This document shows, piece after piece, positions 3,691 to 21,915 of a DNA stretch of 40,209 bases (positions are counted from its first letter, which is position 1; each line of letters starts with the position of its first letter). Below the pieces are notes generated by a model. That model worked only from the letters and a program-made list of their open reading frames with translations, made no database searches and was not told where the DNA came from. The DNA lies in assembly GCA_016188985.1 (NCBI GenBank), contig JACPGM010000047.1, forward strand, positions 1-40,209, written 5' to 3'. Source of the DNA: Lentisphaerota bacterium (GTDB lineage: Bacteria; Verrucomicrobiota; Kiritimatiellia; JAAZAB01). The translations under genes and the position numbers were made by a program.

Positions 3691-3702
3691 AGCTTCAGGC
3701 GT

Positions 3703-4626: not shown

Positions 4627-5189
4627 TTCTTCGTCTGCCCCTCTTTATTGCTAACCCTTGAAAATATGCTCATAGTGGCAAGAGTTCGGCCCGGCGAAAC
4701 AGATGGAACAAGCTTCAGCTTGCCCTTCCGCAACATTCTTACGCCCAGCCCAAGATCCTTGAAAAACTCAAGGGTGCGCAGTTTCAAGTCGCAGATAAGG
4801 CCGAGTTCATACATCCGACCAAACCATTTGATATTCCTCAGCGTCGCTTTATTGAAAGCAATGACCTTTGGAACCTGCGGCTTAACGCCTTCGGCAACCG
4901 CGATAATTTTGACCGCATCCATCACCCTGGCAATGTCCACTTCCTGCGGACAACGGGTGCTGCAGGTTTGGCAGGATGAACACAGCCACATCGTCTTGCT
5001 GTTAAGCACCAGGTCTTTCAAGCCCAGGCGGATGGCATGGATAAGCTGTGCCGGCGTAAGATCCATTGCATAATTCATCGGGCAACCGGCCGAACATTTT
5101 CCGCACTGGTAACAGGCGTTGACGTTCACCTTAATCTCGTTATCCAAGCGCTTCAGGAAGCCTGCATCAGGCATTATGGCTGTTTCCAT
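4623..5189 (-). CDS. hdrC: Heterodisulfide reductase subunit C (two [4Fe-4S] clusters)
   Basis: The 188-residue protein carries two ferredoxin motifs, CYQCGKCSAGCP near residue 26 and CSSCQTCSTRCP near residue 70, the standard HdrC pattern that passes electrons between HdrA and HdrB. The helical C-terminus (YELGLICDLKLRTLEFFKDLGLGVRM) is also typical. It is followed without a gap by hdrB. A 211-base gap with strong hairpins separates it from mvhA upstream, which could allow different transcript levels of the two halves. Confidence 0.95.
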   Translation of the reverse strand: METAIMPDAGFLKRLDNEIKVNVNACYQCGKCSAGCPMNYAMDLTPAQLIHAIRLGLKDLVLNSKTMWLCSSCQTCSTRCPQEVDIARVMDAVKIIAVAEGVKPQVPKVIAFNKATLRNIKWFGRMYELGLICDLKLRTLEFFKDLGLGVRMLRKGKLKLVPSVSPGRTLATMSIFSRVSNKEGQTKK

Positions 5190-5400
5190 AAGTCTTCCCC
5201 AAGGCGGCCTTTGGCCGCAACCTAACTTTTATCGCCTCCCGTTGTCCATCGCAGGGCGCATTTCGTTTCGCCCTGCACCCATGCCACGCAACCGCGGCGG
5301 TTGCGTGATCTAAGACTTGAGCAATTCCCGATCATACCCTTGACCTACGGCTTGGGATGCCAAACTTCTACGCAAAAGCGTGTTATCCTCCGCCACGGCT
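5190..5400. other. Operon-internal gap with strong stem-loops between mvhA and hdrC
   Basis: The gap contains two perfect inverted repeats: GCAGGGCG (5251-5258) with CGCCCTGC (5269-5276), and CACGCAACCGC (5285-5295) with GCGGTTGCGTG (5297-5307). Neither is followed by a good T-run on the minus strand, so they look more like processing or attenuation structures or palindromic repeats than intrinsic terminators. Confidence 0.45.
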
Positions 5401-6849
5401 TCAAGCGTTTACCAGAACGTTCTGGACTGCTCCTTTCCGGTTAAGAATCGTTATTTTCACCGGCAGGCTGCCATCCAGGGCATGGGTTGCGCACGAGAGG
5501 CACGGGTCGTAAGCGCGGATAGCCATCTCCACCCGGTTAAGTATGCCCTGATCATAGCGGCCATTCTTGATGAGGCTCATTGCCGCCTGCTTGACCGACA
5601 TATTGATCGGGGCGTTGTTGTGCGTGGTGCCGACAATGAGGTTCACGTTGGTGACCAGGCCCTGGTCATCGGTCTCATAGTCATGGATCAGCGTGCCCCG
5701 CGGCGCCTCGACGCAGCCGACTCCGCGCGCGGCGCGCGGCTTGACCTTGACGCGCGTCTCCTTGCCGGTGATCTCCGGATCGTTCAGCAACTGCAGCGCC
5801 AGTTCGGCGTTGTAAAGCAGCTCAATCAGCCGCGCGTAGTGATAGAGCAGCGTCAGTTGCGCCGGGCGGCCAAAGGCCTTGCGGAACTCCACAAACTCGG
5901 CCTGGGCCAGGGGCGTCGCCAGGCGGTCGCAAACATTCAGGCGCGCCAGGGTGTTGGTGCGGTAAATGCCCTTGGGAGCCGCCAGATCCATGTCAAAACC
6001 TTCGCCCCACGCTTTGGCAAAGGGGAACTTGAGATAGGACCAGGGCCGCACATTTTCGCCGATGTAATCGGTGTACTGCTCGGAGGCAAAGTCGGTATAG
6101 GAACCGTCCGGCTTCATCAGGCGCAGCTTGCCGTCGTAAAGATTGAGCGTCCCGTCCGAGGTCACCGTTCCCAGAAAGCCGGTTTTGATAACCGCGAGCG
6201 ATTTAATAGCGTCAAGGTACTTGGGCACAATGTTATCCTTGGCGAAAGTCATGGCAAACTTGGCAAATTCGAGCAGCTCGCCGGCCATGGGCAACAAGCG
6301 CTGGCGCTCATCTTCCCGCAAAGGCTTGCTGAACCCGCCCGGGACGGCTGTTACCGGGTGGATTGATTTTCCCGAAACGATATTCAACATCTGGGCGCCA
6401 AGGTGCCGGCAGCGGACAACCCGTTTGCCGATCTCCGGGTGCGCCTGGGCAATGCCGATCACGTTGCGCACGGCATAGTCAGCATCCGGCCCCATGACGA
6501 AATCCGCGCCGGCCAGGAAGAAGAAGTGCAGAATGTGTTCTTCCATGTAGGCGATGGCGTTGCACAATTCGCGCAATTTCCGGCCGGTCGGCGGAATCTG
6601 GACGCCGAAGACCGCGTCATTGGCCTTGGCCGAAGCCAGGTGATGGCTCCAGGGGCATACGCCGCAGATGCTGGTTACGATGCGGGGCAGCTCTTCCACT
6701 GGGCGGCCGATACAGAACTTCTCGAAGCCGCGCAACTCAACAACGTTAACCTGGGTGTCGGCCACGTTGCCGGCATCATCGAGCTGGATGGTGACCTTAG
6801 CGTGGCCTTCGATCCTGGTTACCGGACTGATGGTGATGGTCTTAGTCAT
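5401..6849 (-). CDS. mvhA: F420-non-reducing type [NiFe] hydrogenase large subunit (group 3c)
   Basis: The protein has 482 residues and starts [18 protein letters not shown], the usual large-subunit opening. The two cysteine pairs that bind the Ni-Fe site are intact: [11 protein letters not shown] with C62 and C65, and DPCLSCATH with C450 and C453 near the end. After the last histidine (456) there is a 26-residue tail beginning ALDG, the peptide removed by the maturation protease. It pairs with MvhG and MvhD to feed H2 electrons to HdrA. The active site is therefore a standard [NiFe] centre needing CO and CN ligands, although the adjacent maturation operon contains HydG and HydE instead of HypD, HypE and HypF. 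Confidence 0.95.
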
Positions 6850-6855
6850 GATATT

Positions 6856-7812
6856 TTACCTCCCTATTGCGGTTTTTTGCGGAAGCGGCCGAAGCCGGTT
6901 TTGCGCGCCGATGTAGCGATTGAGCAGCGCGCGCCGATCCAGAACCTCCTTGGCATCAAGGCCAATGGAAGTCACGGCGCCCATCATATCCACCAGCGGA
7001 TTGGCGCCCTTGCGAATTGGGCCGAAGCAGCCGCGGCAGGCCATGTGGCCCTTGATGCAGCGGGGAACCTTTTCCTTCCCGGTTTCCATTGAGCGCGCAC
7101 AGCCGGCGCGCGTCACCGGACCCAGGCAAATAAAACCCTGCTCCATGAAGCAGCGGGTATTTTCCAACGGGCCTTCGGCAATAGCCATGGTTTCCAGCGG
7201 ACGTTTAAGCGTTCCGCCGGAGGCTTTCTTTTCGCGCTTCGTAGGACAGTCATCGCACACGCTGCGCTCCGGCAGATCGAAAGATTTGCCCGTGAGCAAT
7301 GCCGTGAGCGCCTCGACTACCAGCTCGGGCGCGGTCGGACAGCCCGGTATATACACGTCCACCTTGACAACTTCATCGAGCGCTTTGACCGCATCCATAA
7401 GCGGCGGCAGGTTGTCGGCGGGCGTATTGGCGCTCGCCGTAGTCTTGGAGCCCCGGTAGATTTTATCGAACATTTCCTCCAGTTTGAACATATTGGCCAG
7501 GGCGGGAATGCCGCCAAAACAGGCGCAGGAACCCAGGGCAATCAAGGTCTTGCATTTTTTGCGCATCTCCTCAGCCACGTGCTTTTCCTTTTCGTTGCGC
7601 ACGCCGCCGGACACCAGGCCGACGTCGGCCGCCGGAATTTCCATTTCGTTTCTTTCCCCGGTCTGGCCGAAGTATTTGTGGTCCATCAGCACGGGCAGAT
7701 GGACAAACTCCAGTTGGGGCAGCAGATCCAGCAACGGCTCGCCGATGTCCAGGATAGTAACCTCGCAACCACCGCAGATGTTCAGCCATTCTCCAGCTAC
7801 TTTTACCGCCAT
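6856..7812 (-). CDS. mvhG: F420-non-reducing type [NiFe] hydrogenase small subunit
   Basis: The start is taken at the ATG at 7812 (MAVKVAGEW) because an AAGGAGG lies 8 bases upstream; an upstream in-frame start adds eight residues without a site. The 318-residue protein has the cysteines for three Fe-S clusters: ICGGCE at the start, [18 protein letters not shown], then [23 protein letters not shown] and CRGCFGP. It lacks a twin-arginine signal, so it is cytoplasmic. It ends 6 bases before mvhA. Confidence 0.95.
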
Positions 7813-7856
7813 TTTGGCATCCTCCTTCCTTTCCAATGAACCCCGCGCCGGTCAGG

Positions 7857-7892
7857 CCTGCCCGCAATGCTACGCATAGCGTTACAGGCGGG
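7857..7892. repeat. 36-bp CCTGCCCGCAATGC...AGGCGGG palindromic repeat, copy 1
   Basis: This copy is identical except for one base to the one at 35919-35954. It is a perfect-looking hairpin (CCTGCCCGC, then GCTACGCATAGC in the middle, then GGCGGG). It lies between mvhG and the 72-residue gene and supplies the last codons (PARL and stop) of that gene. Related shorter copies are at 23093-23142 and 24850-24902. Confidence 0.7.
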
Positions 7893-8100
7893 CCGGCGGA
7901 GGCGTGCCTTGCAGCACAATTTCTTTAACTACTCTACGGGTATAGAGAAGGACTTTGCCATCCTCCTCGACCCTTGCGGTTTCGAAACCTTGCGCGGCGT
8001 AGTCTTGCTCGCGCGCCGCGGCAGCCGCGGGCGAATCATAGACCACCCCATCCCACATAAACTTTTTCCCGGCAATCAACCTGAAATTGGCGGGCGTCAT
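7882..8100 (-). CDS. 72-residue hypothetical protein in the hydrogenase operon
   Basis: The ATG at 8100 follows AAAGGAG, and the gene sits between mvhD (11 bases upstream) and mvhG. The product, starting MTPANFRLIAGKKFMWDG, is a small soluble alpha/beta protein with the stretch VYDSPAAAAAREQDYAAQGFETARVEEDGKVL abbreviated here as a Tyr-Asp turn, an alanine helix and two strands, ending in VVKEIVL. It has no cysteines, so it does not bind a cluster through them. I do not recognise the family. Its position suggests an accessory or assembly role for the Mvh-Hdr complex. Its last residues are encoded by a mobile repeat, so the native C-terminus may have been altered. Confidence 0.7.
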   Translation of the reverse strand: MTPANFRLIAGKKFMWDGVVYDSPAAAAAREQDYAAQGFETARVEEDGKVLLYTRRVVKEIVLQGTPPPARL

Positions 8101-8111
8101 GGTCTGCTCCT

Positions 8112-8531
8112 TTACCCCACGTGGTACGGACTGGGACCAAGCGCTTTGACCTGCTCGGTCATTGTTTGCATCACCGCGGCAAACTTCGCGCCCTCCGAGG
8201 CCGAGACCCACTCCAGCCGGAAGCGCTCTTGTTCCAGACCGAAATCTTCCAGCATGAGCTTAATGGCCTCCGCGCGTTTCTCGGCCTTCAGGTTGCCTTC
8301 CAGATAATGGCAATCGCCCTTGTGGCAGCCGCAGATCACCACGCCATCCGCCCCTTTGGTGAGCGCATCCATGACCAGATTGGGATGCACCATCCCGGAA
8401 CACATCACCCGGATAATGCGCACATTGGGCGGATAGCGCAGGCGCGAGGTGCCCGCCAAATCCGCGCCGGTGTACGAGCACCAGTGGCAGCAGAACGCAA
8501 TGATTAAAGGCTCATATCCGTTTGTGCTCAT
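8112..8531 (-). CDS. mvhD: Hydrogenase-Hdr linker iron-sulfur protein MvhD
   Basis: The ATG at 8531 overlaps the hdrA stop in ATGA, which fixes the start and gives 139 residues. The protein has the MvhD cysteine pattern: FCCHWCSYTGAD near the start, VRIIRVMCSGMVHP, and VVICGCHKGDCHYLEGN. MvhD holds a [2Fe-2S] cluster and carries electrons from the MvhAG hydrogenase to HdrA. The tight coupling to hdrA supports formation of one MvhADG-HdrABC complex. Confidence 0.95.
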   Translation of the reverse strand: MSTNGYEPLIIAFCCHWCSYTGADLAGTSRLRYPPNVRIIRVMCSGMVHPNLVMDALTKGADGVVICGCHKGDCHYLEGNLKAEKRAEAIKLMLEDFGLEQERFRLEWVSASEGAKFAAVMQTMTEQVKALGPSPYHVG

Positions 8532-11500
8532 GCCGTTGCTCCCGTCAGCGCGGCATCCACCATGGCGCCGATCTGCTCGAGTTTGAAGCCCCGCACAAAG
8601 ATGCCTTTCTTGGGACAAGTCGCCATGCAGACACCGCAGCCCTTGCAGAGCGCCAGATCGCGGTCCACGGTCTTCTTAATGCTGCCGTTCCTTGCGTATT
8701 CAATCAAAGTCAGCGCATGATATGGGCAAGGATCAACGCAGTAGGCGCAGCCGTCGCAATTTTCATCAAGCACCATAGAGACAATTGCATCGAGCTCAAT
8801 TTTATCCTTGGCAATGATTGTGACGGCGCGCGAGGCCGCGGCGCAAGCCTGGTTGATGCTTTCTTCAACCAGTTTGGGCGAATGCGCCAGCCCACAGAGA
8901 AAAATGCCGTCGGTCGCGAAATCCACCGGCCTCAATTTCATATGCGCTTCCATGAAGAATTTGTCTTGGTTCAGAGGCACCTTCAACTTCTTGGCTAAAT
9001 CATCGTTGGCCGGCGCCGGAACGGTTCCCGCGGAAAGCACTACTAAATCGGCAGCGATAGACACTCTCTGTTTGAGAATAGGATCTTCCAGAGAAACTCT
9101 TAAGTGGCCGTTAGTCCTTGCCACCTCCGGCTTGTTAGTATCCTCATAACGGATAAACACCACGCCGGCCTCGCGCGCCTTGCGGTAGTATTCCTCGCGG
9201 AAGCCGTAGGAGCGCATATCGCGATAGAGGACATACACCGAGGCCTCCGGCTTAAGCTGCTTGAATTTCAAGGCATTCTTTATGGCAACCGAACAGCAGA
9301 TACGACTACAGTAAGGATGGTCCTTATCGCGCGAGCCAACACACTGGATCATTACAACCGAATTAACCCCGGTTACATCAGGATCGGAAACGGCGGCTGC
9401 TTCTTTTTGGCTGTCACCCTGAGCAGACCCCGAAGCAAATTGACTTGCAATCTTTTCCTCAAACTGGACCTGGGTAATCACCATTGGGTCTTGGCCGTAG
9501 AGGTATTCTTTCGGCTTATACTCCTCGGCGCCGGTTGCAACGATGATCACGCCGTGTTTAACCACCGCCTCCCGCCCGACTTGCGCGGAACGAGCTTCGC
9601 CCGAAGCAGGGGCCGCCCCGTCTTGCATAACCAGAGTGGTCTTAAAATTGCCCATTGAACCCTCAACTACACGCACCTCGGTTGTGGTATAAACTTTTAT
9701 CTTTTGATGAGTTGCAACTTTATCAATAAGGCGGTTTAACTCTTTCTGCGGGTCGGAACCTTCTTCCAGCAGGTATTTCAGATGTTTCATATTGCCGCCC
9801 AGTTCCGCCGCGCGCTCAACCAGATGAACGGCGAATCCCTGGTTGGCCAGTTCCAGGGCAGCGGTCATACCGGAAAGCCCGGCGCCAATTACGAGGGCAG
9901 CGTTCTGAACCTCTAAGAAACGGTTCTGGAGCGGTTCCAATAAGCGCGCCTTGGCTACTGCCATGCGGACTAAATCCTTGGCCTTCCTCGTGGCCTTTTC
10001 CGGCTCAAGCATATGCACCCAGGTATTCTGGTCGCGGATATTGGCCATTTCAAACAGGTACGGATTTAGCCCTGCTTCTCTGCATGTATTACGGAATAAC
10101 GATTCGTGTGTGCGCGGCGTGCAGGAGGCAACCACCACCCGGTTCAGGTCGTGCTTCTTGATCATCTCCTTAATCTTCTTCTGGGTATCCGATGAACAGG
10201 TGTAAAGATTGTCCTCGGCATAAACGACATCCGGCAGGCTCTGGGCATAATCGCGGATAGAGGGCACATCGGCCACGCCGCCGATATTCTTGCCGCAGTG
10301 ACATACGAATACGCCAATACGCGGGTTCTGACCATTGATACCCTTTTCCGGCGGGTATTCGCGGCTGGTAACCAACGTGCCTCTGGCTTCGGCCAGGAGC
10401 GTCATCGCCCTGGAAGCCGCGCCGGAGGCCTCCATCACTGTCTCCGGAATGTCCTTTGGCGCCACAAACGGTCCGCAGGCAAAAATGCCCGGCTGCGATG
10501 TCTCAACCGGCGTGAACTGGCCGGTCTTGCAGAAGTTGTGCTGGTTAAGCTCCACGTCGCAAATCCGGGCAAGTTGTTGCACGTCTTCCGGCGGGGCCAG
10601 GCCGGCCGATAGCACCACCATGTCAAACTCCGCCACCTGCCGCTGCTGGTCTTCATCGTAATAAACCAGCTCCAGGTTTCTGGTTTGCGGAACTTCTTTT
10701 ATGCTCGAAGGCCGGCACCGGGTGTACTTGACGCCCAATTCCTTGGCACGTTCATAGTAGGCCTCAAAACCCTTGCCGAAAGCGCGGATATCAATATAGA
10801 AAATATGGCATTCCAGATCCGGCTGATGCTCTTTGGCAATGATGGCTTCTTTGGTCGCATACATGCAGCAGACCGATGAGCAATAATTATGCTCCATCTC
10901 GCGCGAGCCGACACACTGGATAAAGGCAATCTTGTGGGGATGCTTGGCATCGGCCGGCCTCAGGATTTGGCCCTGATACGGGCCGCTGGCCGACATAATC
11001 CGTTCAAACTGGAGCGACGACACCACATTGGGATAGCGCCCGAACCCGAATTCCTGTTTGCGATTGGAATCAAACAGTTCAAAGCCCGGCGCGAGAATAA
11101 GCGCGCCCACATCAAGCGTTTGTTTCTCTTCAGCGGGCATATCATGGTTAATTGCCTTGGCCTCGCAGGCCGCCGCACAGAGCAGGCACTCACAGCAGAC
11201 TGCGCAGGAAAGACAGCGGCTTGCCTCTGCCTTGGCCTGCTCCTCGGTGTAACCGAGCTCCACCTCGCGGAAATTGCCCTTCCTCTGTTCTACCGGCAGG
11301 GTCGGCATTTTGACCCGCGCTTTCTTTTCTACGCCTTCAGTTTCTTTCTTTACCTCATCACGTACTGGTTCTTCCCGACCGACTTTTCCACCGGAGGCGG
11401 ATCCGCCTTTGGCGGAAAGATCCTGACCGCTCAGATAGCGGTCAATAGATTCAGCGGCTCGGCGACCGGCCACAATCGCTTCTATAGCTGTCGAAGGCCC

Positions 11501-13177
11501 GGAAACCGCATCGCCTCCGCAGAAAATTCCGGGGACGGACGTCTCCAGAGTTATACTATCAACCTCGACTAAGCCCCGCCGGTTGATCTTGATAGACTTG
11601 TCCGCCGAAGCCTCAGCGAAAGCGGCAGTTTTATCAAGGTTCGGCTGATTGCGTAGCGGAGTGGTATCCGGCTGTTGGCTGATTGCCGGGACAATAATAT
11701 CTACAGGAACGGTAAATTCAGAATCCTTGAGCGGGACTGGCCTGCGCCGGCCGGATGCATCCGGTTCGCCGAGTTCCATCTTGACACATTCCAAACCGGT
11801 CACCGCGCCCTTCCGGCCTAACACCCCGGTTGGCGCAGTTAGATAAGTAATCCTGATGCCTTCCTTTAAAGCCTCTTCAATTTCATTGGGGTTGGCCGGC
11901 ATTTCTTTGTGACTGCGGCGATAAATGATGGTAACTTCTGACGCCCCAAGCCGCCAAGCGCTGCGGGCCACATCCATCGCCACGTTACCGCCGCCGATTA
12001 CAGCCACCTTCTTACCCTTGACCTCCGGCGGGTTGCCGAGATTAAGGTCTTTCAAGAATGTGACCGCATCAATAACGCCGGCATATTCCTGCTCGCCGGA
12101 AATATCAAGTTTCAGCCCCTGCCAGGCGCCAATCGCCAAAAAGATCGCTTTGTAGCCCTGCTTCCTTAAACCATCCAACGTTAAATCCCGGCCCAGGGCG
12201 GAATTGAGCCTGAGTTCTACACCGAGATCAAGGACCGCCGCCCGAATCTCATTTTGTAATATCTCTTTAGGCAGGCGATAGTCCGGGATGCCGTATCTGA
12301 GCATCCCGCCGACATCCGGTTGCGACTCAAAGATGACAACCTGATATCCTTTGAGCGCCAACTCCCGTGCGGCCATTAGACCGGCCGGGCCGGCGCCAAT
12401 GATAGCGACTTTCTCGTCATGCTTCGCAATCTGTTGAACCTGCGGCTTTTTGTCGGGATTGGCCAATTCCCAATCTGAAAGAAATCGCTTAAGCGCCGCA
12501 ATGGAGATGGGCTCATCAAGTTCGTTACGGGTACATTCAGCCTCGCAAGGATGCAGACAAATCCGTCCGCAGATGGACGGAAATGGATTCTGACGGCGCT
12601 CAACCTCAAGCGCTTCGGCATACCGGCCTTGCGCAATCAGGGCAACATAAGCATGCGCATTAACCCCAGCCGGACAGGCAAACCGGCAGGGACTGACGCC
12701 CTGTTTGTCTATGGCAAACGCGCCGGGAACCGCCTGGGGGTAACGGCGGTAAATCGCATTGCGTTTGATGAGATCCACGTCAAACTCACTGTCAACCCTC
12801 ACCGGGCACTTAACCACACAGTCTGAACAGCCCGTGCATTTGGATAAATCAATGTAACGGGCGCGTTTTCTAATCGTTACCTTGAAATTGCCCGGCTCGC
12901 CTTCTACCTTCTCTAAATCGGCATTGGTAATTTTCTCTATATTAAAATGACTGCCCACATCAACGATTCTGGGCGCAAGCGTGCACATTGCGCAATCGTT
13001 GGTCGGAAAGGTCTTGTCCAACTGGGCCATTACGCCGCCAATACAGGGGGTCTTGTCTAATAGATAAACCTTGTAGCCGGCCTCGACCAAATCAAGCGAG
13101 GCCTGCATGCCGCCGATGCCGCCGCCTACGACCAGGGCGGCGCCGACTTTTCCGCTAAATTTCTTGTTTGGCGTCAT
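8528..13177 (-). CDS. hdrA: Giant HdrA: tandem HdrA flavoprotein with embedded GltD/NfnB-like NAD(P)H domain
   Basis: From the ATG at 13177 (a TTG seven codons upstream is the alternative) the protein is 1549 residues, roughly twice an ordinary HdrA. In order: a first FAD fold (ALVVGGGIGGMQ, ~14-60) with the HdrA loop NDCAMCTLAPR; a ferredoxin motif CTGCSDCVVKC (~114); a GltD-like unit (~163-580) with cysteines CRFAC, CGRICLHPCEAEC, an FAD fold VAIIGAGPAGLMA and a nucleotide fold VAVIGGGNVAMDVARSA followed by YRRSHKEMPA, the basic pair being typical for NADPH; a cysteine cluster CLSCAVCCECLLCAAAC (~655); an HdrA core with QCVGSRE; the HdrA start VFVCHCGKNIGG (~956); a second FAD fold VIGAGLSGMTAALEL (~1096); another QCVGSRD; and two C-terminal [4Fe-4S] motifs (CDGCAYCVDPC, CKGCGVCMATC). 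It should split electrons between ferredoxin, NAD(P)H and HdrBC. Several repeat-derived peptides sit in linkers. Confidence 0.93.
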   Translation of the reverse strand: MTPNKKFSGKVGAALVVGGGIGGMQASLDLVEAGYKVYLLDKTPCIGGVMAQLDKTFPTNDCAMCTLAPRIVDVGSHFNIEKITNADLEKVEGEPGNFKVTIRKRARYIDLSKCTGCSDCVVKCPVRVDSEFDVDLIKRNAIYRRYPQAVPGAFAIDKQGVSPCRFACPAGVNAHAYVALIAQGRYAEALEVERRQNPFPSICGRICLHPCEAECTRNELDEPISIAALKRFLSDWELANPDKKPQVQQIAKHDEKVAIIGAGPAGLMAARELALKGYQVVIFESQPDVGGMLRYGIPDYRLPKEILQNEIRAAVLDLGVELRLNSALGRDLTLDGLRKQGYKAIFLAIGAWQGLKLDISGEQEYAGVIDAVTFLKDLNLGNPPEVKGKKVAVIGGGNVAMDVARSAWRLGASEVTIIYRRSHKEMPANPNEIEEALKEGIRITYLTAPTGVLGRKGAVTGLECVKMELGEPDASGRRRPVPLKDSEFTVPVDIIVPAISQQPDTTPLRNQPNLDKTAAFAEASADKSIKINRRGLVEVDSITLETSVPGIFCGGDAVSGPSTAIEAIVAGRRAAESIDRYLSGQDLSAKGGSASGGKVGREEPVRDEVKKETEGVEKKARVKMPTLPVEQRKGNFREVELGYTEEQAKAEASRCLSCAVCCECLLCAAACEAKAINHDMPAEEKQTLDVGALILAPGFELFDSNRKQEFGFGRYPNVVSSLQFERIMSASGPYQGQILRPADAKHPHKIAFIQCVGSREMEHNYCSSVCCMYATKEAIIAKEHQPDLECHIFYIDIRAFGKGFEAYYERAKELGVKYTRCRPSSIKEVPQTRNLELVYYDEDQQRQVAEFDMVVLSAGLAPPEDVQQLARICDVELNQHNFCKTGQFTPVETSQPGIFACGPFVAPKDIPETVMEASGAASRAMTLLAEARGTLVTSREYPPEKGINGQNPRIGVFVCHCGKNIGGVADVPSIRDYAQSLPDVVYAEDNLYTCSSDTQKKIKEMIKKHDLNRVVVASCTPRTHESLFRNTCREAGLNPYLFEMANIRDQNTWVHMLEPEKATRKAKDLVRMAVAKARLLEPLQNRFLEVQNAALVIGAGLSGMTAALELANQGFAVHLVERAAELGGNMKHLKYLLEEGSDPQKELNRLIDKVATHQKIKVYTTTEVRVVEGSMGNFKTTLVMQDGAAPASGEARSAQVGREAVVKHGVIIVATGAEEYKPKEYLYGQDPMVITQVQFEEKIASQFASGSAQGDSQKEAAAVSDPDVTGVNSVVMIQCVGSRDKDHPYCSRICCSVAIKNALKFKQLKPEASVYVLYRDMRSYGFREEYYRKAREAGVVFIRYEDTNKPEVARTNGHLRVSLEDPILKQRVSIAADLVVLSAGTVPAPANDDLAKKLKVPLNQDKFFMEAHMKLRPVDFATDGIFLCGLAHSPKLVEESINQACAAASRAVTIIAKDKIELDAIVSMVLDENCDGCAYCVDPCPYHALTLIEYARNGSIKKTVDRDLALCKGCGVCMATCPKKGIFVRGFKLEQIGAMVDAALTGATA
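11386..11417. repeat. GGCGGATCCGCC palindromic repeat inserted in frame in hdrA
   Basis: This copy of the 32-bp palindrome family encodes the peptide LSAKGGSASGGK on the minus strand, in the linker between the GltD-like unit and the next cysteine cluster of HdrA (about residue 588). The reading frame is kept. A second repeat-like stretch at about 11608-11640 encodes AFAEASADK nearby, and a third at 9405-9440 (CACCCTGAGC motif) encodes SGSAQGDSQ. Confidence 0.6.
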
Positions 13178-13300
13178 GATCGCACCTGAACTCCTCAAAC
13201 TGCGGTCTCCACGCGTGTTTCCACGATCTTACTTGCCTCCCGTCCTGCCATTAAAAATGGTTTAACCTTTGCCGTTTTATTTCGGGCGGTTGCCCGGGTT

Positions 13301-15187
13301 TCAGCTCAGCGCCTCGAACTCCAGCCGGAACGAATAAACATCGCCGATCAATTGGCTATGAACGGTGCAATCAGCCTTGTTAAGGACCGCCAACATCGGT
13401 TTGTTTTCCACCAGCACTTCGGCGGCAAAGCCACTGATTCCATTGCGGCGCGCGATCCGGATAAGGTAGCTCAGCAAGAAGCTGCCCAGGCCGCGCCGCT
13501 GCCATTTATCGTGCACGGTAAAGGCCACCTCGGCCCAGTTGGTCTTCGGGTCCAGATAGTAGCTGCCGATGGCAATAATCTGCTCGCCATAGGCTTCCGG
13601 CAACACGCCGACAATGCAGACATCGTTGCGGTGGTCAACATAGACGAAGTCCTCGATCTGTTTCCGCGAGATACCCTTGACCGTCCGCATGAAGCGGTTG
13701 TAAATGGACTGCTCCGACAGGCCATAGAAATGCTCCCGCATCCGCGCCATGTCGGTGGGATGAATCGGCCGGAAGAGGATCTGCGTGCCGTCCTTGAGCA
13801 GATAAGTGACCCGCATTTCCTTGGCGGCGACGACAATCAGGCCCTCTTTATCGGCCAGCCCGGCGGAAAGATACTTGGCCGCAACGGCTTCGCGCAGGAG
13901 CTGCGCGCGGAACTTCGGATGGGCAATACTGATGAGCGCCATGGCGCGCTCGCTGATGCTTTTGCCGTAGAGATAGGCAACGCCGTATTCGGTGACAACA
14001 TACTGGACGCCGGCGTTGGCCATAACTACGCCCGCGCCGGGGCTGAGCCGGGTGACAATGCGCGAACCGGCGCCGTCCGCGGTGGTCGCGGGCAAGACAA
14101 TGATCGCCTTGCCGCCGCGCGATTTAGCCGCGCCACGACTGAAGTCCGCCTGCCCGCCGACGCCGCCGAAGAACTCCGCGCCCGGGGCGCCGGCGCAGAC
14201 CTGACCGGTGAGGTCCACCTCCAAGGCCGCGTTAATGGCAACCATCTTGTATTGTTTCTGGATGACCGCTTGGTCGTTGACATATTCGGTCGGATAAAAC
14301 GCAATGGCTGGGTTGCGGTCCACAAAGTCGTAGAGTTGCTTCGTGCCGACGCAGAAGCTGGCCACAACCTTGCCGCGGTCAATAGTCTTGCGGGCGCCCG
14401 TGACGGCGCCGCACTCGATCAATTCCCTGACGCCATCGGTAATCATCTCCGTGTGAATGCCTAAGTCCTTCTTGTCTTTAAGGTAAGGGAGCAATGTCTG
14501 CGGCAGGTAGCCGATGCCGGCCTCGATGGTGGAGCCGTTCTCGATGAGCGCCGCGAGATACTCGGCGATCTGCCGGGTGCACCCATTGGCCGACGGCAGC
14601 GTCACTTCCGGAATCGGGGTTTCCGTGGGCACGAGCACGTCAATATCATGGACATGCACGCAGGAATCGCCCAGGGTGCGCGGCATGTTGCTGTTGACCT
14701 GCGCGATAACCAGGCTGGCGTTGGCAATGGCGCTCTTAACCACGTCCACCGCGACGCCCAGACTGCACAAACCGTATTCGTCCGGCGGCGTCACCTGGAT
14801 CAGCGCCACGTCCAGCGGCAATTTGCCGGAGTTGAACAGGTGCGGGATGTCGGAGAGGAAGGTCGGCGTGTAATCACTCAGACCTTCCCGGATAAGGCCG
14901 TAAATGTTTTCGGTGATGAAGAAGCTGTTGACGCGGAAATAGCCGGTCAAATCCTTGCGCGCATAGGGCGCCTCGCCAAACGTAAGCAGATGCACAATTT
15001 CCGAGTCCGGCAGTTCGTAGGCCCGCTTGGTCAACGCCCCGACCAATTCCCGCGGCTGGCCGCAACCCGTGCCGATAAAGATGCGTTGGCCGGGACGAAT
15101 TTTACGGACGGCCTCGTCCGCGCCGGCAATCGTCGCCGCGTATTTTTGCCGCCACTGCGGATCGCAAGTTGGCTTAGGGTTGTTCAT
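13301..15187 (-). CDS. Acyl-CoA hydrolase/CoA-transferase fused to a GNAT domain
   Basis: The 628-residue protein is a family I-type acetyl-CoA hydrolase/transferase (4-hydroxybutyrate CoA-transferase class) over about residues 1-440, with GTGCGQPREL near the start, AGIGYLPQ, and the active-site region GAEFFGGVGGQADFSRGA. A GNAT acetyltransferase follows (about 460-628), with VAFTVHDKWQRRGLGSFLL as the acetyl-CoA binding loop. This two-domain form is common in anaerobes. It overlaps the upstream acyl-CoA synthetase by 14 bases, so the two are co-translated. Together they would move CoA between acids and conserve energy from acyl-CoA. The acid substrate cannot be read from the sequence; the GNAT part may regulate by lysine acetylation. 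Confidence 0.9.
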   Translation of the reverse strand: MNNPKPTCDPQWRQKYAATIAGADEAVRKIRPGQRIFIGTGCGQPRELVGALTKRAYELPDSEIVHLLTFGEAPYARKDLTGYFRVNSFFITENIYGLIREGLSDYTPTFLSDIPHLFNSGKLPLDVALIQVTPPDEYGLCSLGVAVDVVKSAIANASLVIAQVNSNMPRTLGDSCVHVHDIDVLVPTETPIPEVTLPSANGCTRQIAEYLAALIENGSTIEAGIGYLPQTLLPYLKDKKDLGIHTEMITDGVRELIECGAVTGARKTIDRGKVVASFCVGTKQLYDFVDRNPAIAFYPTEYVNDQAVIQKQYKMVAINAALEVDLTGQVCAGAPGAEFFGGVGGQADFSRGAAKSRGGKAIIVLPATTADGAGSRIVTRLSPGAGVVMANAGVQYVVTEYGVAYLYGKSISERAMALISIAHPKFRAQLLREAVAAKYLSAGLADKEGLIVVAAKEMRVTYLLKDGTQILFRPIHPTDMARMREHFYGLSEQSIYNRFMRTVKGISRKQIEDFVYVDHRNDVCIVGVLPEAYGEQIIAIGSYYLDPKTNWAEVAFTVHDKWQRRGLGSFLLSYLIRIARRNGISGFAAEVLVENKPMLAVLNKADCTVHSQLIGDVYSFRLEFEALS

Positions 15188-17390
15188 GTTTGACTTCCGC
15201 GTTGGCCAGGGTCATCCGGGCGTCGGCCACATAGGGCGTCATGCCTACTTCGCCGACCACAAAGGGATTGATATCCAGCTCCACAATCTGCGGGTAGTCC
15301 GTGACGAGCTGGCTGATATGCTGGAGCGCGCCGGCAATGGCGTCGAGGTCCACCGGCGCCTGGCCGCGCGCGCCTTTGAGCAGCTCATAGGAACGGGTGC
15401 CTATGAGCATCTGCATCGCTTCTTCGGCGGTTACCGGCGCGAGATGGAAGGTGACATCCTTCATCACCTCGACGAAAATGCCGCCTAAACCAAACATCAG
15501 CATGGGCCCGAACTGCGGATCGCGCGTCATGCCGAGAATGAGCTCGCGGCCGCGCGCGCCCATCTTCTCGACGAAACCACCGCGGATGTTGGCTTGCGGC
15601 GTCCGCCGGTGCGCGCGCAACATCATCAGGTCGAAGGCGTCGCGCACCTGCTCGGCGTTGGCCAGGTTGAGGCGGACGCCGCCGAAATCGGATTTGTGAA
15701 TAATGTCCGGCGAACAAATCTTGAGCACCACCGGATAGCCGATCCGCTCGGCGGCTTCCACCGCCTCGTCGGCGGTGCGGGCCAGGTGGCCCGGCAGGAT
15801 CATGAAGTTATAGGCTCGCAGAATCTCTTTGGCTTCCACCTCGCCCATTTGCTTAATGCCGCTGCGGACCTGCCAGTTGATGACGCGGTCCACGCGCCGG
15901 CGGTTGACGGGAAACCGCGTAACCAGCCGGGGCGGACGGTTGCGCCAGGCCGCGTAGTCGGCCATCGCCAGGAGCGCGCGCACGGCCCGGTCGGGCGATG
16001 GATAATTCGGGATGCCCACGCGCATCAATTCATCTATCGCCGCCTGCACGCTGTGGCCGCCCAGGAAGGCCGCCAGCAACGGTTTGCGGGCCTTATGGGC
16101 CGCCGCCAGTTTCTTGGCCAGTTCCAGCGGCTTGGTCATGCTCTGCGGTGTCACCACCACAATGATCGCATCCGTGGCGGGATCCTGCTGCAGGCAGTCG
16201 AACGCGGCCACGTAACGGTCCGGGTCGGCGTCGCCAATGACATCCACCGGATTGCCGAGCGTTGCGGTCGGCGGCAGCAACTTCTGCAAATCGGCCTTGG
16301 TCCGGGCAGTCGGCAGGGCCATCTGCAAGCCAAGATTTTCCACGGCGTCGGCCGCCATGATGCCGGGACCGCCCGCGTTGGTGATGATGCCGACCCGCTT
16401 GCCCGGCGGCAGCGGCTGCATCGCCAGCGCCAAGGCATAATCAAACAGCGCCTCGATGTTCTCAGCCCGAATAACGCCGGAACGCTTGAACGCGGAGCCA
16501 TAGGCCATATCCACCCCCGCCAAGCTGCCGGTGTGTGAAGAAGCGGCCCGCGCGCCGGCCGCGGTCGTGCCGACCTTGAGAATGACAACCGGTTTCTGGG
16601 AAGCCGCCTGCTCGGCGACGCGTAGAAACTCATCGCCCGCGCTGATGCTTTCGAGGTAGCCCGCGATAACCTTCGTTTCCCGGTCATCGGCCAGCGCCTG
16701 CAGAAAATCCACTTCGTTGAGATCGGCCTTGTTGCCGAAACTGATAATCTTGCTGAGCCCCATTTTCCGGCCGACGGCCAAGTCGAGCATCGCCGCGCAG
16801 AGCGCGCCGGACTGCGAGATAATCGAGATGGCGCCGACCGGCGGGAAAGCCGACGCAAAGGTCGCATTCATTTTGTGGTGCGTATTGATCAGGCCGATGC
16901 AATTCGGCCCCATCATCCGCACACCCTTGGCGTGGCAGACCGCCGCAATCTCATTCTCCAGTTCCGCGCCCTTTGGGCCGCTCTCCTTGAACCCGGCCGT
17001 GATGACGATGACGGCCTTCGCGCCGGCGCGGGCGGACATGACGATCGCGTCCTTCACTGCCTTTGTCGGCACCACAATCACGCTGAGGTCTATCGGGAGC
17101 TGATATTCGCTGAGGTCGCCGTAGCACTTCAGGCCCAGCACTTCCCTGGCGGCCGGGTTCACCGGCACGATCGTCCCCGCGTATCCGCCCTGCTGGAGAT
17201 TTACCAGGATCTCATGGCCGACCTTGCCGGGCGCGCGCGAGGCCCCGATGACCGCAATGCTGCCCGGCGCCAACAGGCTCTCAAGCGGCCGCGGCGCCGG
17301 ATGATCGTTGAAGACCATTTTTCTTGAGTTCGGCCATTCCGTCAATTCAGCGACCTCGCTAAGCACCGCCGTATCTGCGCACGTTTCCAC
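15174..17390 (-). CDS. acd: ADP-forming acyl-CoA (acetyl-CoA) synthetase, fused alpha-beta
   Basis: A GTG at 17390 with GGGAGG nine bases upstream is the start; the product has 738 residues. The order is CoA-binding domain (LLAPGSIAVIGASRAPGKVG, ~40-130), succinyl-CoA-synthetase-like ligase domain with the phosphohistidine loop SSHTGSLAGVD and TNAGGPGIMAADAVE, and a C-terminal ATP-grasp domain (~510-735) with YPVVLKICSPDIIHKSDFGG and GLGGIFVEV. The enzyme converts acyl-CoA, ADP and phosphate to acid, CoA and ATP, a fermentative ATP-yielding step in anaerobes without phosphotransacetylase and acetate kinase. As the first gene of the hydrogenase-Hdr string it ties H2 metabolism to acetate formation. 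The substrate range is not visible. Confidence 0.92.
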   Translation of the reverse strand: METCADTAVLSEVAELTEWPNSRKMVFNDHPAPRPLESLLAPGSIAVIGASRAPGKVGHEILVNLQQGGYAGTIVPVNPAAREVLGLKCYGDLSEYQLPIDLSVIVVPTKAVKDAIVMSARAGAKAVIVITAGFKESGPKGAELENEIAAVCHAKGVRMMGPNCIGLINTHHKMNATFASAFPPVGAISIISQSGALCAAMLDLAVGRKMGLSKIISFGNKADLNEVDFLQALADDRETKVIAGYLESISAGDEFLRVAEQAASQKPVVILKVGTTAAGARAASSHTGSLAGVDMAYGSAFKRSGVIRAENIEALFDYALALAMQPLPPGKRVGIITNAGGPGIMAADAVENLGLQMALPTARTKADLQKLLPPTATLGNPVDVIGDADPDRYVAAFDCLQQDPATDAIIVVVTPQSMTKPLELAKKLAAAHKARKPLLAAFLGGHSVQAAIDELMRVGIPNYPSPDRAVRALLAMADYAAWRNRPPRLVTRFPVNRRRVDRVINWQVRSGIKQMGEVEAKEILRAYNFMILPGHLARTADEAVEAAERIGYPVVLKICSPDIIHKSDFGGVRLNLANAEQVRDAFDLMMLRAHRRTPQANIRGGFVEKMGARGRELILGMTRDPQFGPMLMFGLGGIFVEVMKDVTFHLAPVTAEEAMQMLIGTRSYELLKGARGQAPVDLDAIAGALQHISQLVTDYPQIVELDINPFVVGEVGMTPYVADARMTLANAEVKHEQP

Positions 17391-17571: not shown

Positions 17572-17823
17572 ATGCATGAGTGGGGAATTACGCAGGACCT
17601 GTTGAGCGAAGTTCAAAAACGCGTCGCGGAAAACCGGCTGGGCAAAGTAACCTTGATCCGGATTGATCTGGGCACGCGCGCCGGCTTGAGCGCGGCGGCG
17701 CTCAAGACCTGCTTCTCGGCGCTGACCCGGGACACCATTCTGGACCAAACCAGGTTGCAGATAAAAAAAACGCCCGGCGCTGCCATTGTCATTAAGACCA
17801 TTACCGGCTCCCGGGCGGAATGA
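17572..17823 (+). CDS. hypA: HypA-like nickel-insertion protein lacking the zinc-finger domain
   Basis: The ATG at 17572 follows AAAGGAGG and gives 83 residues beginning MHEWGITQDLL. The MHE start is the HypA nickel site (N-terminus, His2, Glu3), and KVTLIRIDLGTRAGLSAAALKTCFSALT matches the HypA core pattern around its first strand and helix. Ordinary HypA is about 113 residues and carries two CxxC pairs binding zinc after the LQI strand. Here that part is absent: the sequence goes from TRLQIKKTPG straight into AAIVIKTITG, which resembles the final HypA strand. It therefore looks like a HypA with the zinc module excised. HypA hands nickel to the hydrogenase large subunit. It opens the operon with hydG, 15 bases before it. 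The assignment rests on the N-terminal half. Confidence 0.75.
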   Translation: MHEWGITQDLLSEVQKRVAENRLGKVTLIRIDLGTRAGLSAAALKTCFSALTRDTILDQTRLQIKKTPGAAIVIKTITGSRAE

Positions 17824-17838
17824 ACCTGAGGCCGCACG

Positions 17839-19230
17839 ATGACCATACCACCAGAACTACAGACTGATTTTCTGGCCGGGCTTCTGCGCCGGACCAGCCG
17901 GCCGGCGCCGGCAATCGCCGCGGCAATTATCCAAAAAGCGCGCGCCAAAAAGGGACTGGCGCTTGAGGAGGTCGGCCGGCTGCTCAACCTGTCCGCCGCC
18001 GCCGGAAAAGATTCGCAACTCACCGAGCAACTTTTCCAGACAGCCGCGCTCGTCAAGCGGGAGATTTATGGGCCGCGGCTGGTTCTGTTTGCGCCACTGT
18101 ATATCTCGGACTACTGCGTCAACGACTGCGCCTACTGCAATTTCCATACCCGCAACCGGGAGCTCGTCCGCCGCAAGCTCACCCTGAGCGAAGTCGCCGC
18201 GCAGACCAGGTTCCTGATCAACCAGGGGCATAAACGTCTGCTCCTGGAGTTCGGGGAAGATCCGGTCCACAACCCCATAGACTATATCGTCAAGGTCATC
18301 CGTCAAATCTATGCGGCGCGAACGCCCCGGGGCAATATCCGCCGGGTAAATGTCAATATCGCCGCCACGACGGCGGCCGACTACCGCAAGCTCAAAGCCG
18401 CCGGCATCGGCACTTACCAGCTCTTTCAGGAAACCTATCACCGGCCGACCTATGAGCAATTGCACCGCGGTCCCAAGGCGGATTACGAGCGCCAGATCGG
18501 CGCGGCGGGCCGGGCCTTTGCCGGCGGGATTGAAGACGTGGGTTTGGGCGCGCTTTTCGGGCTGTATGACTGGCGCTTTGAAGTGCTCGCGCTGGTGGCC
18601 CACAGCCAGTATCTGGAGCGCACCTACAAGGTCGGTCCCCATACGATTTCAGTTCCGCGCTTGCGCCCCGCGCCGACGGTTACTTATCGGGCGGCTTACC
18701 CGGTGAGCGATGACGATTTTCTGCGGTTGATTGCGATCCTCCGGCTGGCCTTGCCGTATGTGGGCATGATTATTTCCACGCGCGAGCGTCCGGAAATCCG
18801 CCGGCAAGCGTTCCAAATTGGCATCTCCCAGGCCAGCGCCGGCTCGGTTACCGTTACCGGCGGCTACGGCCGCCAAAGGCGGCAACCCCAGTTTGCCATT
18901 GCGGATGAAAGGCCGCTACAGGAAGTAATCCGCGCCGTCATGGCGGACAAACTGATCCCGAGTTTCTGCACCGCCTGTTACCGCCGCGGCCGGACGGGCG
19001 AGCGCTTCATGCAACTGGCCAAGCCTGGATCCATTCAACACCTCTGTCAGCCCAACGCCCTCCTGACCTTGGCCGAATATCTGGCCGATTTCACCACGGA
19101 CGGCCTGCGGGAAAAAGGATACCGGCTGATTGCAGCCGGCCTGCGGCAGATCACCGATGATGCGGTGCGTTCGGAGACCGAGCGGCGCCTGGCGCAAGTG
19201 CGTGCCGGGGCGCGGGATTTATATTTTTGA
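17839..19230 (+). CDS. hydG: HydG, tyrosine lyase making CO and cyanide on iron
   Basis: The 463-residue protein follows T. italicus-type HydG from end to end. It has the radical SAM motif CVNDCAYC (C93, C97, C100), then the lines FGEDPVHNPIDYIV, RRVNVNIAATT, GTYQLFQETYHRPTYEQLH and VGPHTISVPRLRP, with H268 at the position that holds the dangler iron. The C-terminal cluster cysteines are CTACYRRGRTGERFM (C377, C380) and HLCQPN (C403), and the protein ends in RDLYF as HydG does. ThiH lacks this last domain, so HydG is clear. The enzyme cleaves tyrosine to yield an Fe(CO)2(CN) cysteine synthon for [FeFe] hydrogenase. No [FeFe] hydrogenase, nor hydF, is in the window; it stands between hypA-like and hypC-hydE genes opposite a [NiFe] operon. 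Confidence 0.95.
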   Translation: MTIPPELQTDFLAGLLRRTSRPAPAIAAAIIQKARAKKGLALEEVGRLLNLSAAAGKDSQLTEQLFQTAALVKREIYGPRLVLFAPLYISDYCVNDCAYCNFHTRNRELVRRKLTLSEVAAQTRFLINQGHKRLLLEFGEDPVHNPIDYIVKVIRQIYAARTPRGNIRRVNVNIAATTAADYRKLKAAGIGTYQLFQETYHRPTYEQLHRGPKADYERQIGAAGRAFAGGIEDVGLGALFGLYDWRFEVLALVAHSQYLERTYKVGPHTISVPRLRPAPTVTYRAAYPVSDDDFLRLIAILRLALPYVGMIISTRERPEIRRQAFQIGISQASAGSVTVTGGYGRQRRQPQFAIADERPLQEVIRAVMADKLIPSFCTACYRRGRTGERFMQLAKPGSIQHLCQPNALLTLAEYLADFTTDGLREKGYRLIAAGLRQITDDAVRSETERRLAQVRAGARDLYF

Positions 19231-19416: not shown

Positions 19417-20634
19417 ATGTGTTACGCCATTCCAGGGAAAGTAGTGGAACTCAACGGACGCCACGCCGTCATTGACTACTTCGGCGAACGCCGCCAGGCC
19501 TATACCGACCTCACCCGCCCCTCTCCGGGCGACTATGTCTATGCCCAGGGCGGGTTCGTAATTCAAACCGTGCCGGCCCAGGAAGCCTTGGCAATTCTGG
19601 CTGACTGGCAGGAACTTTTTTTCCGGCTCCAGCAAACCGATCAAAAATTGGCCCAAAGGAAGCGCACGCTTCATGAGCAGGCCAACGCCGTCCGCCAGCA
19701 ATTTCAGGGCAACTCCTGTTGCGTTCACGGCATTCTGGAGTTCTCCAACTACTGCCGGAATAACTGCCTCTACTGCGGCATCCGCAAGGACAACCGCAAG
19801 TTACAACGCTATCGCATGAGCGAACAAGAAATCCTGCAAGCCGTCGAATACGCCGTTAATCAATTGGGGTTCCGCGCGCTGGTCCTGCAGTCGGGCGAAG
19901 ATTTTTGGTACAGCGAGGCCAAACTCTGCCGGATCGTCAGGGAAATCCGCGCGCGCTTTTCTGTGCTCATTTTTTTGTCGCTGGGCGAGCGGCCGCGCGC
20001 GACCTACCACAAGTTATATGAGGCCGGCGCCCGTGGCGCTTTGATCCGGTTCGAGACCAGCGACGCGGAGCAGTATAAAAAAATCAAGCCGGAATCCACC
20101 CTGGCCGACCGTCTCGGGCTCATCAAAGACCTCCGCGATCTCGGCTATCTGATTATTTCCGGTTTCCTGATGGGCTTGCCGGACCCGACGGCGGGCGTGG
20201 CCCAAAGCGGGCCGCGGGGACAGAACGGCCGGAACGTTCTTGCCGACATCAAGCGGACGGCCGAATCGGGGGCCGAGATGTTTTCGTTCGGGCCGTTCAT
20301 TCCCCACCCGGAAACGCCCTTGGCCGCCGCCCGAGGGCCCCGGCTGGCCACCGTGCTTAACGCCATTGCCCAGGCCCGCTTGATGTATCCGACCGCCAAG
20401 ATTCTGGTAACTACGGCCTTGGAGACTTTGGATCCCGCGCAGGGCGCGCGGGCCGGCCTGATGGCCGGCGCCAATTCCCTGATGATCAATATCACTCCGC
20501 AAAAATACCGCCGCCTTTACGAGATTTATCCTAACCGCGCCGGCGTTGAGGATGACACGCCTAAGCGCATTGACAAGCTGCTCGAATTACTGCATGCCCT
20601 CGGCCGCGCCCCGACCGATATCGGGGTTTCTTAG
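19417..20634 (+). CDS. hydE: HypC-HydE fusion protein
   Basis: This 405-residue protein joins two maturation factors. Residues 1-66 are HypC: MCYAIPGKVVEL with the essential Cys2, HAVIDYFGERRQAY, GDYVYAQGGFVIQ and EALAILADW; the usual HypC histidine in VHAG is replaced by Gln44. From about residue 85 it is HydE: ILEFSNYCRNNCLYCGIR with C113, C117 and C120, then YRMSEQEIL, LVLQSGEDFWY, FLSLGERP, MGLPDPT, FGPFIPHPETPLA, TTALETLDP, and GANSLMINITP. The HydE radical SAM enzyme processes the HydG iron synthon for [FeFe] hydrogenase; HypC carries Fe(CO)(CN)2 to [NiFe] large subunits. Covalent joining suggests the synthon is handed directly to HypC and then to MvhA. An AAGG stands 9 bases before the ATG. 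The first ~35 residues of normal HydE are replaced by HypC. Confidence 0.92.
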   Translation: MCYAIPGKVVELNGRHAVIDYFGERRQAYTDLTRPSPGDYVYAQGGFVIQTVPAQEALAILADWQELFFRLQQTDQKLAQRKRTLHEQANAVRQQFQGNSCCVHGILEFSNYCRNNCLYCGIRKDNRKLQRYRMSEQEILQAVEYAVNQLGFRALVLQSGEDFWYSEAKLCRIVREIRARFSVLIFLSLGERPRATYHKLYEAGARGALIRFETSDAEQYKKIKPESTLADRLGLIKDLRDLGYLIISGFLMGLPDPTAGVAQSGPRGQNGRNVLADIKRTAESGAEMFSFGPFIPHPETPLAAARGPRLATVLNAIAQARLMYPTAKILVTTALETLDPAQGARAGLMAGANSLMINITPQKYRRLYEIYPNRAGVEDDTPKRIDKLLELLHALGRAPTDIGVS

Positions 20635-20784: not shown

Positions 20785-21915
20785 ATGGCCGTGGGCAAAA
20801 ACCTTAACACTCCCAGCGCCGTGCAGGCGCCTGGGCCGGAGCCAACGCCTGGTCAGCCCAGCAGCGCCAGCGCGCTTAATCACCCGTCGCTGCAGAAGCT
20901 TGACGAGCTTTCGCGCCAGTTGCTTGACATCGGTCTGGCCGTAGTCTTGCCGCACGCCAAGGGCTGGGAACACCTCTGGCTGAGCGGCAACGGGCCCTGG
21001 GCGCCCTATTGCCGGCTTTTCCTGCGCCATGCGGAAGGCGCCAAACAATGCAAGATGTGCCATATCCTCATGGCCGTTGCCGCCTGCACTCAAGGCATCC
21101 GCGAGCACCGTTGTCACACGGGCGCCTCGGTGCTCGTAGCGCCGGTTCAGCAGCCTCATGGTGAAGCCGCGGCGGTCTTGAGTAATTGTGTTTTTTTTAC
21201 CGGCAAGCGCGCCAACATCTGGCCCGAAACACGGGAACGCGGAAAAAAACTCGGCCTGGACCTGAAGAAGTTGCGCAAAGAGTTTCTGGCCTTGCCGGAA
21301 CCGACCGCCGAAAAAAAAGCGCTTGCCCATCTTATCCTGGAAACGGCCGCTCAGATGGCCGCGGAACTTTCCCGCCGGCGCCTGCTGGAACAGGAGTTGA
21401 ACAAACTGCGCAATCGCGTACAAGGCAAGGAGTTCAATCCCTCGGCGGTCGAACGCATCCTCAACACGGCCATGAAAATGCCATCGAATCACAAACCGGC
21501 CACGGCCCCGCCTGCCCGCCATAGCTCGCAGAGCGACGGCGGGCGGCACGGCGCGGCGCACGGCGCGCCGGAACCAGATTCCAACGGAAAAACTCCGCCG
21601 GCCATCGTCAAAGTGGTAAAAAACCTGGTGAACCATCGGCCGGATCTTAACTTCTGCGTAACCGAAATTGCGCGGGCCGCGCGCCTTTCCCCAAATTATT
21701 TCTCGGCCTTATTTCGCCGCTATGCCGACGAAAGATTCTCGGATTTCCTTCTCAACCGCCGGATTGAACTGGCCCAGAAATATCTGCGCGACAAAACCTT
21801 GAACGTCAGCGAGGTGGCCTTCAAGGTGGGTTTTGACGACCCCGGTTATTTTATCAGACGTTTCAAGCGCCGCGTGGGCCTGACGCCCGGAGCATGGCGC
21901 AGCCGCCTGGCGTAG
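20785..21915 (+). CDS. AraC-family regulator with PocR-type sensor domain
   Basis: The 376-residue protein has an N-terminal PocR-like domain (about 35-145) with YCRLFLRHAEGAKQCKMCHILMA shortened here to its Cys-x2-Cys-His motif, then REHRCHTG, a cysteine and histidine set usual for this sensor. A helical linker (about 180-215) and a low-complexity, Ala/His/Pro-rich stretch follow. The C-terminal AraC DNA-binding domain (about 275-376) has LNFCVTEIARAARLSPNYFS and VSEVAFKVGFDDPGYFIRRF. PocR-type domains sense small metabolites or, with their cysteines, possibly metals or redox state. It stands between the hydrogenase-maturation genes and the peptide-prenyl block and could control either. No strong ribosome-binding site is seen before its ATG. 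Confidence 0.88.
   Translation: MAVGKNLNTPSAVQAPGPEPTPGQPSSASALNHPSLQKLDELSRQLLDIGLAVVLPHAKGWEHLWLSGNGPWAPYCRLFLRHAEGAKQCKMCHILMAVAACTQGIREHRCHTGASVLVAPVQQPHGEAAAVLSNCVFFTGKRANIWPETRERGKKLGLDLKKLRKEFLALPEPTAEKKALAHLILETAAQMAAELSRRRLLEQELNKLRNRVQGKEFNPSAVERILNTAMKMPSNHKPATAPPARHSSQSDGGRHGAAHGAPEPDSNGKTPPAIVKVVKNLVNHRPDLNFCVTEIARAARLSPNYFSALFRRYADERFSDFLLNRRIELAQKYLRDKTLNVSEVAFKVGFDDPGYFIRRFKRRVGLTPGAWRSRLA

Follow-up and report, generated by a model that had tools for sequence, protein, structure and literature searches.

A HypC-HydE fusion protein of bacteria and archaea very probably marks a third route to the iron-CO-cyanide centre of hydrogenases

Which hydrogenase is served by a protein that joins HypC, a [NiFe] hydrogenase chaperone, to HydE, an [FeFe] hydrogenase maturase? 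The question is raised by a gene at positions 19417-20634 (+) of the window, by which we mean the whole 40,209-nucleotide stretch of Lentisphaerota contig JACPGM010000047.1 that was analysed. Its frame is uninterrupted, starts with ATG and encodes 405 amino acids with the N-terminus 'MC'. Pfam matched residues 1-63 (19417-19605 (+)) to HupF_HypC (PF01455, E 1.9e-14) and residues 108-256 to Radical_SAM (E 2e-15). The NCBIfam profile hypC_hupF (TIGR00074) covered residues 1-77 with 50.6 bits, over its cut-off of 48, and rSAM_HydE (TIGR03956) covered residues 76-396 (E 6.4e-74) with 249.2 bits, narrowly missing its equivalog cut-off of 254.6 bits; the HydE-type radical SAM domain is placed at residues 77-396 (19645-20604 (+)). 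The N-terminal part has the profile match and Met-Cys start of the HypC/HupF family and lacks its conserved histidine, and the remainder has the CxxxCxxC motif and the fold of HydE; each domain is a member or a near neighbour of a known family. A joint protein of this kind had been proposed in the sequence-only reading, and the features on which that proposal was built, namely the MC start, C113/C117/C120 of the radical SAM motif (19753-19776 (+); present in 81/81 fusions), FGPFIPHPETPLA and GANSLMINITP, were all found. The fusion is the sole HypC of its source genome (3.09 Mb, 86% complete).

An AlphaFold2 model built with 57 family members as input reached a pLDDT of 94.2 and a pTM of 0.92, and the two domains of the model probably hold a fixed mutual arrangement. 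In a structure search, residues 82-403 superposed on Thermotoga maritima HydE with Z of 42-43, the complex-B-bound structures 7o1o and 8qmk included. A HypC match was absent among the structure matches listed, which the larger HydE domain fills, and the assignment of the N-terminus to HypC rests on its sequence.

The same full-length architecture in other genomes had been set beforehand as a check, and a scan of GTDB genomes found the fusion encoded by at least 80 of them, in about 13 phyla, two of these archaeal. Both domains were carried by all of the best 80 of 135 candidates, 2 of the 80 being cut by contig ends. The carriers include Planctomycetota, Omnitrophota, Elusimicrobiota, Margulisbacteria/Saganbacteria, Spirochaetota, Bdellovibrionota, Nitrospirota, Micrarchaeota and Woesearchaeota. 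Because the architecture recurs in so many independent genomes, an assembly join as the origin of the fusion was excluded without read mapping. A tree built on the HydE part placed 42 fusions on one side of a branch and 26 canonical HydE proteins, all from the window's own taxonomic class, on the other (SH-aLRT 100); as judged from these sequences, the fusion HydE part is a single clade, distinct from the canonical HydE sampled. In one Nitrospirota bin the joining goes further, HypC, HydE and HydG forming a single 943-aa chain (L077:10001-12829 (+)); a second fusion copy in the same genome adjoins another [NiFe] large subunit.

In the window, the fusion lies directly downstream of two genes on the same strand. 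One encodes a 463-aa HydG (17839-19230 (+); TIGR03955, 515.5 bits against a cut-off of 312) with a C-terminal CTAC...C auxiliary-cluster motif, and the other an 83-aa HypA-like protein (17572-17823 (+); PF01155, E 2.6e-13), referred to here as mini-HypA, which starts with MHE, has no CxxC zinc domain and matches only model positions 1-68 of 116 in TIGR00100 (E 1.4e-8). The opposite strand, from 3154 to 13198, encodes a [NiFe] hydrogenase of group-3c type together with HdrABC and a HycI protease. Its large subunit, of the VhuA/MvhA type (5401-6849 (-); PF00374, E 7e-34; VhuA, E 8.4e-139), has the four cysteine ligands in SICGVC and DPCLSC and a C-terminal extension, and bears out the [NiFe] partner of MvhA type that had been expected for the fusion. 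Profile matches also identified a VhuG/MvhG-type small subunit (6856-7836 (-)), an MvhD/VhuD subunit (FlpD; 8112-8618 (-); PF02662, E 7.4e-56), an HdrC-like protein (4623-5189 (-)), an HdrB-like protein (3703-4626 (-)) and the HycI/FrhD-type large-subunit maturation protease (3154-3690 (-); PF01750, E 1.7e-24; TIGR00072, E 5.5e-39). An HdrA-like flavoprotein of 1556 aa (8528-13198 (-)), with a glutamate-synthase-small-subunit-like region inside, possibly belongs to an NAD(P)H-linked electron-bifurcating complex. Elsewhere in the window are an acetyl-CoA hydrolase/transferase with a C-terminal GNAT acetyltransferase (13301-15187 (-)), an ADP-forming acyl-CoA synthetase overlapping it (15174-17390 (-)) and, between nrdR and ribAB, a 253-aa frame (37532-38293 (+)) that matched nothing in Pfam or NCBIfam. 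Immediately downstream of the fusion, a PocR-type sensor with an AraC DNA-binding domain (20785-21915 (+)) is a possible regulator.

Across loci, a gene order of [NiFe] small subunit, large subunit, HycI, mini-HypA, fusion and HydG recurs many times, and the frames of this operon often overlap or nearly do so. With two surveys combined, a large subunit was located within 15 kb of the fusion in about 28 of 54 genomes. Mini-HypA proteins of about 80 aa, with MHE kept and the zinc-finger CxxC motifs missing, were seen near the fusion at L048, L049, L057, L061, L067, L070, L072, L073, L075, L078 and L079, and their recurrence beside it suggests a reduced nickel chaperone. Fourteen loci among L002-L081 have a gene near the fusion that, judged by its sequence start, resembles a Rex-type redox repressor. 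The CX2C...C auxiliary-cluster motif of HydG is kept in 45 of 52 proteins; HydG of L041, L049, L051, L053, L055, L065 and L081 ends in CTAGYRC, not CTACYR, so that the CX2C spacing is altered, and most of these carry one more cysteine beyond it. Two genomes serve as natural controls. In G144 one [NiFe] enzyme has a Hyp operon beside it, and another has the fusion and a HypA. In G024 canonical HydE, HydG and HydF share one contig and the fusion adjoins a [NiFe] large subunit on another; its single HydG must serve both canonical HydE and fusion, unless a second HydG was missed, and the former has the usual Arg where the latter has Cys-x-His.

Gene content was surveyed in 54 fusion genomes. As nearly all of them are metagenome bins, an absence from one genome is weak evidence; the pattern over all 54 is not. 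A [NiFe] large subunit was matched by profile in 54/54 and HydG over cut-off in 53/54, the exception being G137. The two cysteine pairs that provide the four Ni/Fe ligands were readable in 51/54; two other large subunits break off at a contig end once the first pair is complete, and that of G135 was not found by motif. The hydrogenases concerned include group 3 and group-4-like types. The Hyp genes covered were HypA, HypB, HypC, HypD and HypF. HypD was detected in one of the 54 genomes, and not in the window genome (G000); HypF over cut-off was found in none, with one partial HypF in G144; HypB was present in eight. A HypA-like protein was found in 43, in 36 of them over cut-off, and HypC occurred solely in fused form in 53, one genome having a stand-alone copy. 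Ordinary Hyp genes could be envisaged to have been missed through incomplete bins or divergence, given that nearly all the genomes are bins, that the window genome is incomplete and that the survey covered five of the six Hyp genes. We consider this most improbable: chance loss of HypD in 53 of 54 genomes is not credible, HypF is likewise missing, HypC is only found fused, and the same search, run as a control, detected HypD in 51 of 97 class relatives of the window genome. Three relatives of the same genus have HypD and the window genome has none. Within the class, HypD was present in 0/4 fusion carriers versus 51/93 others (p 0.047), a thin comparison that, like the association tests generally, is uncorrected for phylogeny.

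The survey also bears on whether the fusion still matures [FeFe] hydrogenase, its [NiFe] neighbourhood being incidental, as could be supposed from the fact that HydE and HydG are [FeFe] maturases and that nine of the 54 genomes encode an [FeFe] hydrogenase (PF02906). The other 45, the window genome among them, have none, HydF over cut-off was found in only eight and is missing from the window genome, G024, which has HydF, keeps its separate canonical HydE beside it, and the fusion itself adjoins [NiFe] genes; we hold this explanation to be exceedingly improbable. Genome G105 (L011) has two [FeFe] hydrogenase matches and no HydF over cut-off, which may reflect an incomplete bin or HydF-free maturation. 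The sequence-only reading had supposed a HydE-type enzyme that passes an iron-CO/CN unit to HypC, which would dock on the large subunit, with HypDEF absent; the counterexample it had named, a fusion always accompanied by a full Hyp set and an [FeFe] hydrogenase, is not what these counts show, and they support the idea. The fusion thus very probably marks a third, undescribed route to the hydrogenase iron-CO-cyanide centre.

Alignment of the 81 fusions showed that Cys2 of the HypC domain (19420-19422 (+)) is kept in every one and that the usual HypC histidine, present in the solved HypC proteins 2z1c and 3vyr, is Gln44 (19546-19548 (+)) in every one as well. According to a 2025 review, this histidine is H51 in E. 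coli and lies near the iron site (PMC12134894). Strand 1 of the HydE barrel starts in the fusions with N-[SA]-[CS]-C-[VI]-H-[GA], which in the window protein is N99-S-C-C102-V-H104-G105 (19711-19731 (+)), and N99, Cys102 and His104 are present in 81/81. Position 104, invariably His in the fusions, is Arg in 26/26 canonical HydE proteins, and position 102, Cys in the fusions, is mostly His, Phe or Pro in the canonical proteins. As alternate residues of a barrel strand point to one side, Cys102 and His104 may both be exposed to the cavity, alongside the substrate, and they are candidate extra Fe ligands. Most other HydE-conserved residues are kept in the fusions, the stretch 256-267 in the residue list being a gap artefact from an insert in the window protein. 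Gln44 and Cys102-x-His104 support a changed site in the fusion. The loss of the histidine and the new pair in HydE could also favour a HypC that is only a docking adaptor, with the HydE barrel delivering iron straight to the large subunit and Cys2 never acting as carrier. This is improbable in view of the retention of Cys2 throughout the fusions, as in iron-carrying chaperones (PMC11565642).

The large subunits at fusion loci keep the PRG arginine of the second shell and the Thr/Ser position after it. In [NiFe] structures these residues are thought to hold the cyanides, and their retention argues for an end product with ordinary Fe(CN)2CO, which rather suggests that the finished enzyme has the usual ligand set. 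The replacement of histidine by Gln44 had been read as consistent with a changed ligand set; the replacement proved real and invariant, but the ligand set presumed from it sits poorly with large subunits that keep their cyanide-holding residues.

In the known [FeFe] pathway the HydG synthon is passed to HydE (PMC12752695), and in the known [NiFe] route Fe(CN)2CO is held by Cys2 of HypC and Cys41 of HypD and then passes from HypC to the large subunit (PMC11565642). The fusion would unite the first half of the former with the last step of the latter. The gene-content and sequence evidence for such a pathway is strong, and for its chemistry we infer the following substrate, transfer, iron-binding site, ligand exchange and role of nickel. 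HydG would cleave tyrosine to give an Fe-CO-CN-cysteine synthon, which the HydE barrel would take up, and radical SAM chemistry would free the iron unit from the cysteine. The iron unit would become Fe(CN)2CO, or something close to it, at a site built with Cys2 of the HypC domain and probably Cys102 and His104 inside the HydE barrel, and this site would replace Cys41 of HypD. One CO would be swapped for CN, the spare CN being available because tyrosine cleavage gives CO and CN one to one, or there would be no swap. The HypC domain would then dock on the apo large subunit and deliver the iron, so that the fusion route would stand in for HypCDEF; the small HypA would insert nickel, and HycI would clip the C-terminus of the large subunit. 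That the fusion is the central maturase of this pathway, which would supply the iron part of the [NiFe] site without HypD, and that the mechanism as a whole holds, we put at a probability of about 0.83. The known product of HydG carries two CO and one CN, and the [NiFe] site one CO and two CN. This mismatch, which the proposed exchange would have to bridge, counts against the proposal. It is possible, if doubtful, that iron from HydG and tyrosine keeps its two CO and one CN, held between Cys2 and the Cys/His site of the HydE barrel during assembly, which would make this a third way of maturing hydrogenases, and possibly one that gives an active site of new composition.

The 2025 review mentioned above states that the [NiFe] cofactor requires six Hyp proteins and that HypD is the assembly place of its iron unit, and HydE and HydG go unmentioned in it (PMC12134894). 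No description of a HypC-HydE protein or of HypD-free [NiFe] maturation was found in the open PMC literature, a scope that leaves aside preprints and most subscription papers. As prior descriptions, a Clostridium hydrogenase survey and the Hakuba actinobacterium paper were near misses and were set aside; a paper on hydrogen in Saganbacteria/Margulisbacteria is silent on maturation; and the strains of the Anaerosomatales paper have HypABCDEF, the 'HydG' there being a sulfhydrogenase subunit. A widespread HypD-less route would break the rule of six Hyp proteins and tie both hydrogenase classes to one shared HydG product. It would also explain active enzyme in the many uncultured bacteria and archaea that have [NiFe] genes and no HypD, and its compact gene set might serve for making [NiFe] hydrogenases in new hosts.

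Among known systems, the fusion genomes fall outside the Hyp system by their HypD and HypF content and outside the HydEFG system by HydF and [FeFe] hydrogenase, though not by HydG, and their presumed target is a [NiFe] large subunit that has CxxC near each end; the system belongs to neither. With HypCDEF/HypAB it shares a HypC with Cys2, a HypA-like protein, HycI and the four-cysteine large subunit as target. Unlike that system, it is without HypD or full HypF and rarely has HypB, its HypC has Gln for His and is joined to a radical SAM enzyme, and its CO and CN would presumably come from tyrosine, not carbamoyl phosphate. With HydEFG it shares a HydG with CTAC...C and a HydE that keeps the fold, the radical SAM motif and the majority of the conserved residues in the barrel. 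In contrast to HydEFG, HydF and [FeFe] hydrogenase are mostly absent, the fusion stands beside [NiFe] genes, and its HydE part forms a separate clade, has Cys102/His104 where canonical proteins have other residues and Arg, and is joined to HypC. T. maritima HydE with complex B (7o1o, 8qmk) shares its fold with the fusion (Z about 42) and is 38% identical to it over 307 residues; it has no HypC, and its strand reads 'VHIRA' where that of the fusion reads 'NSCCVHG'.
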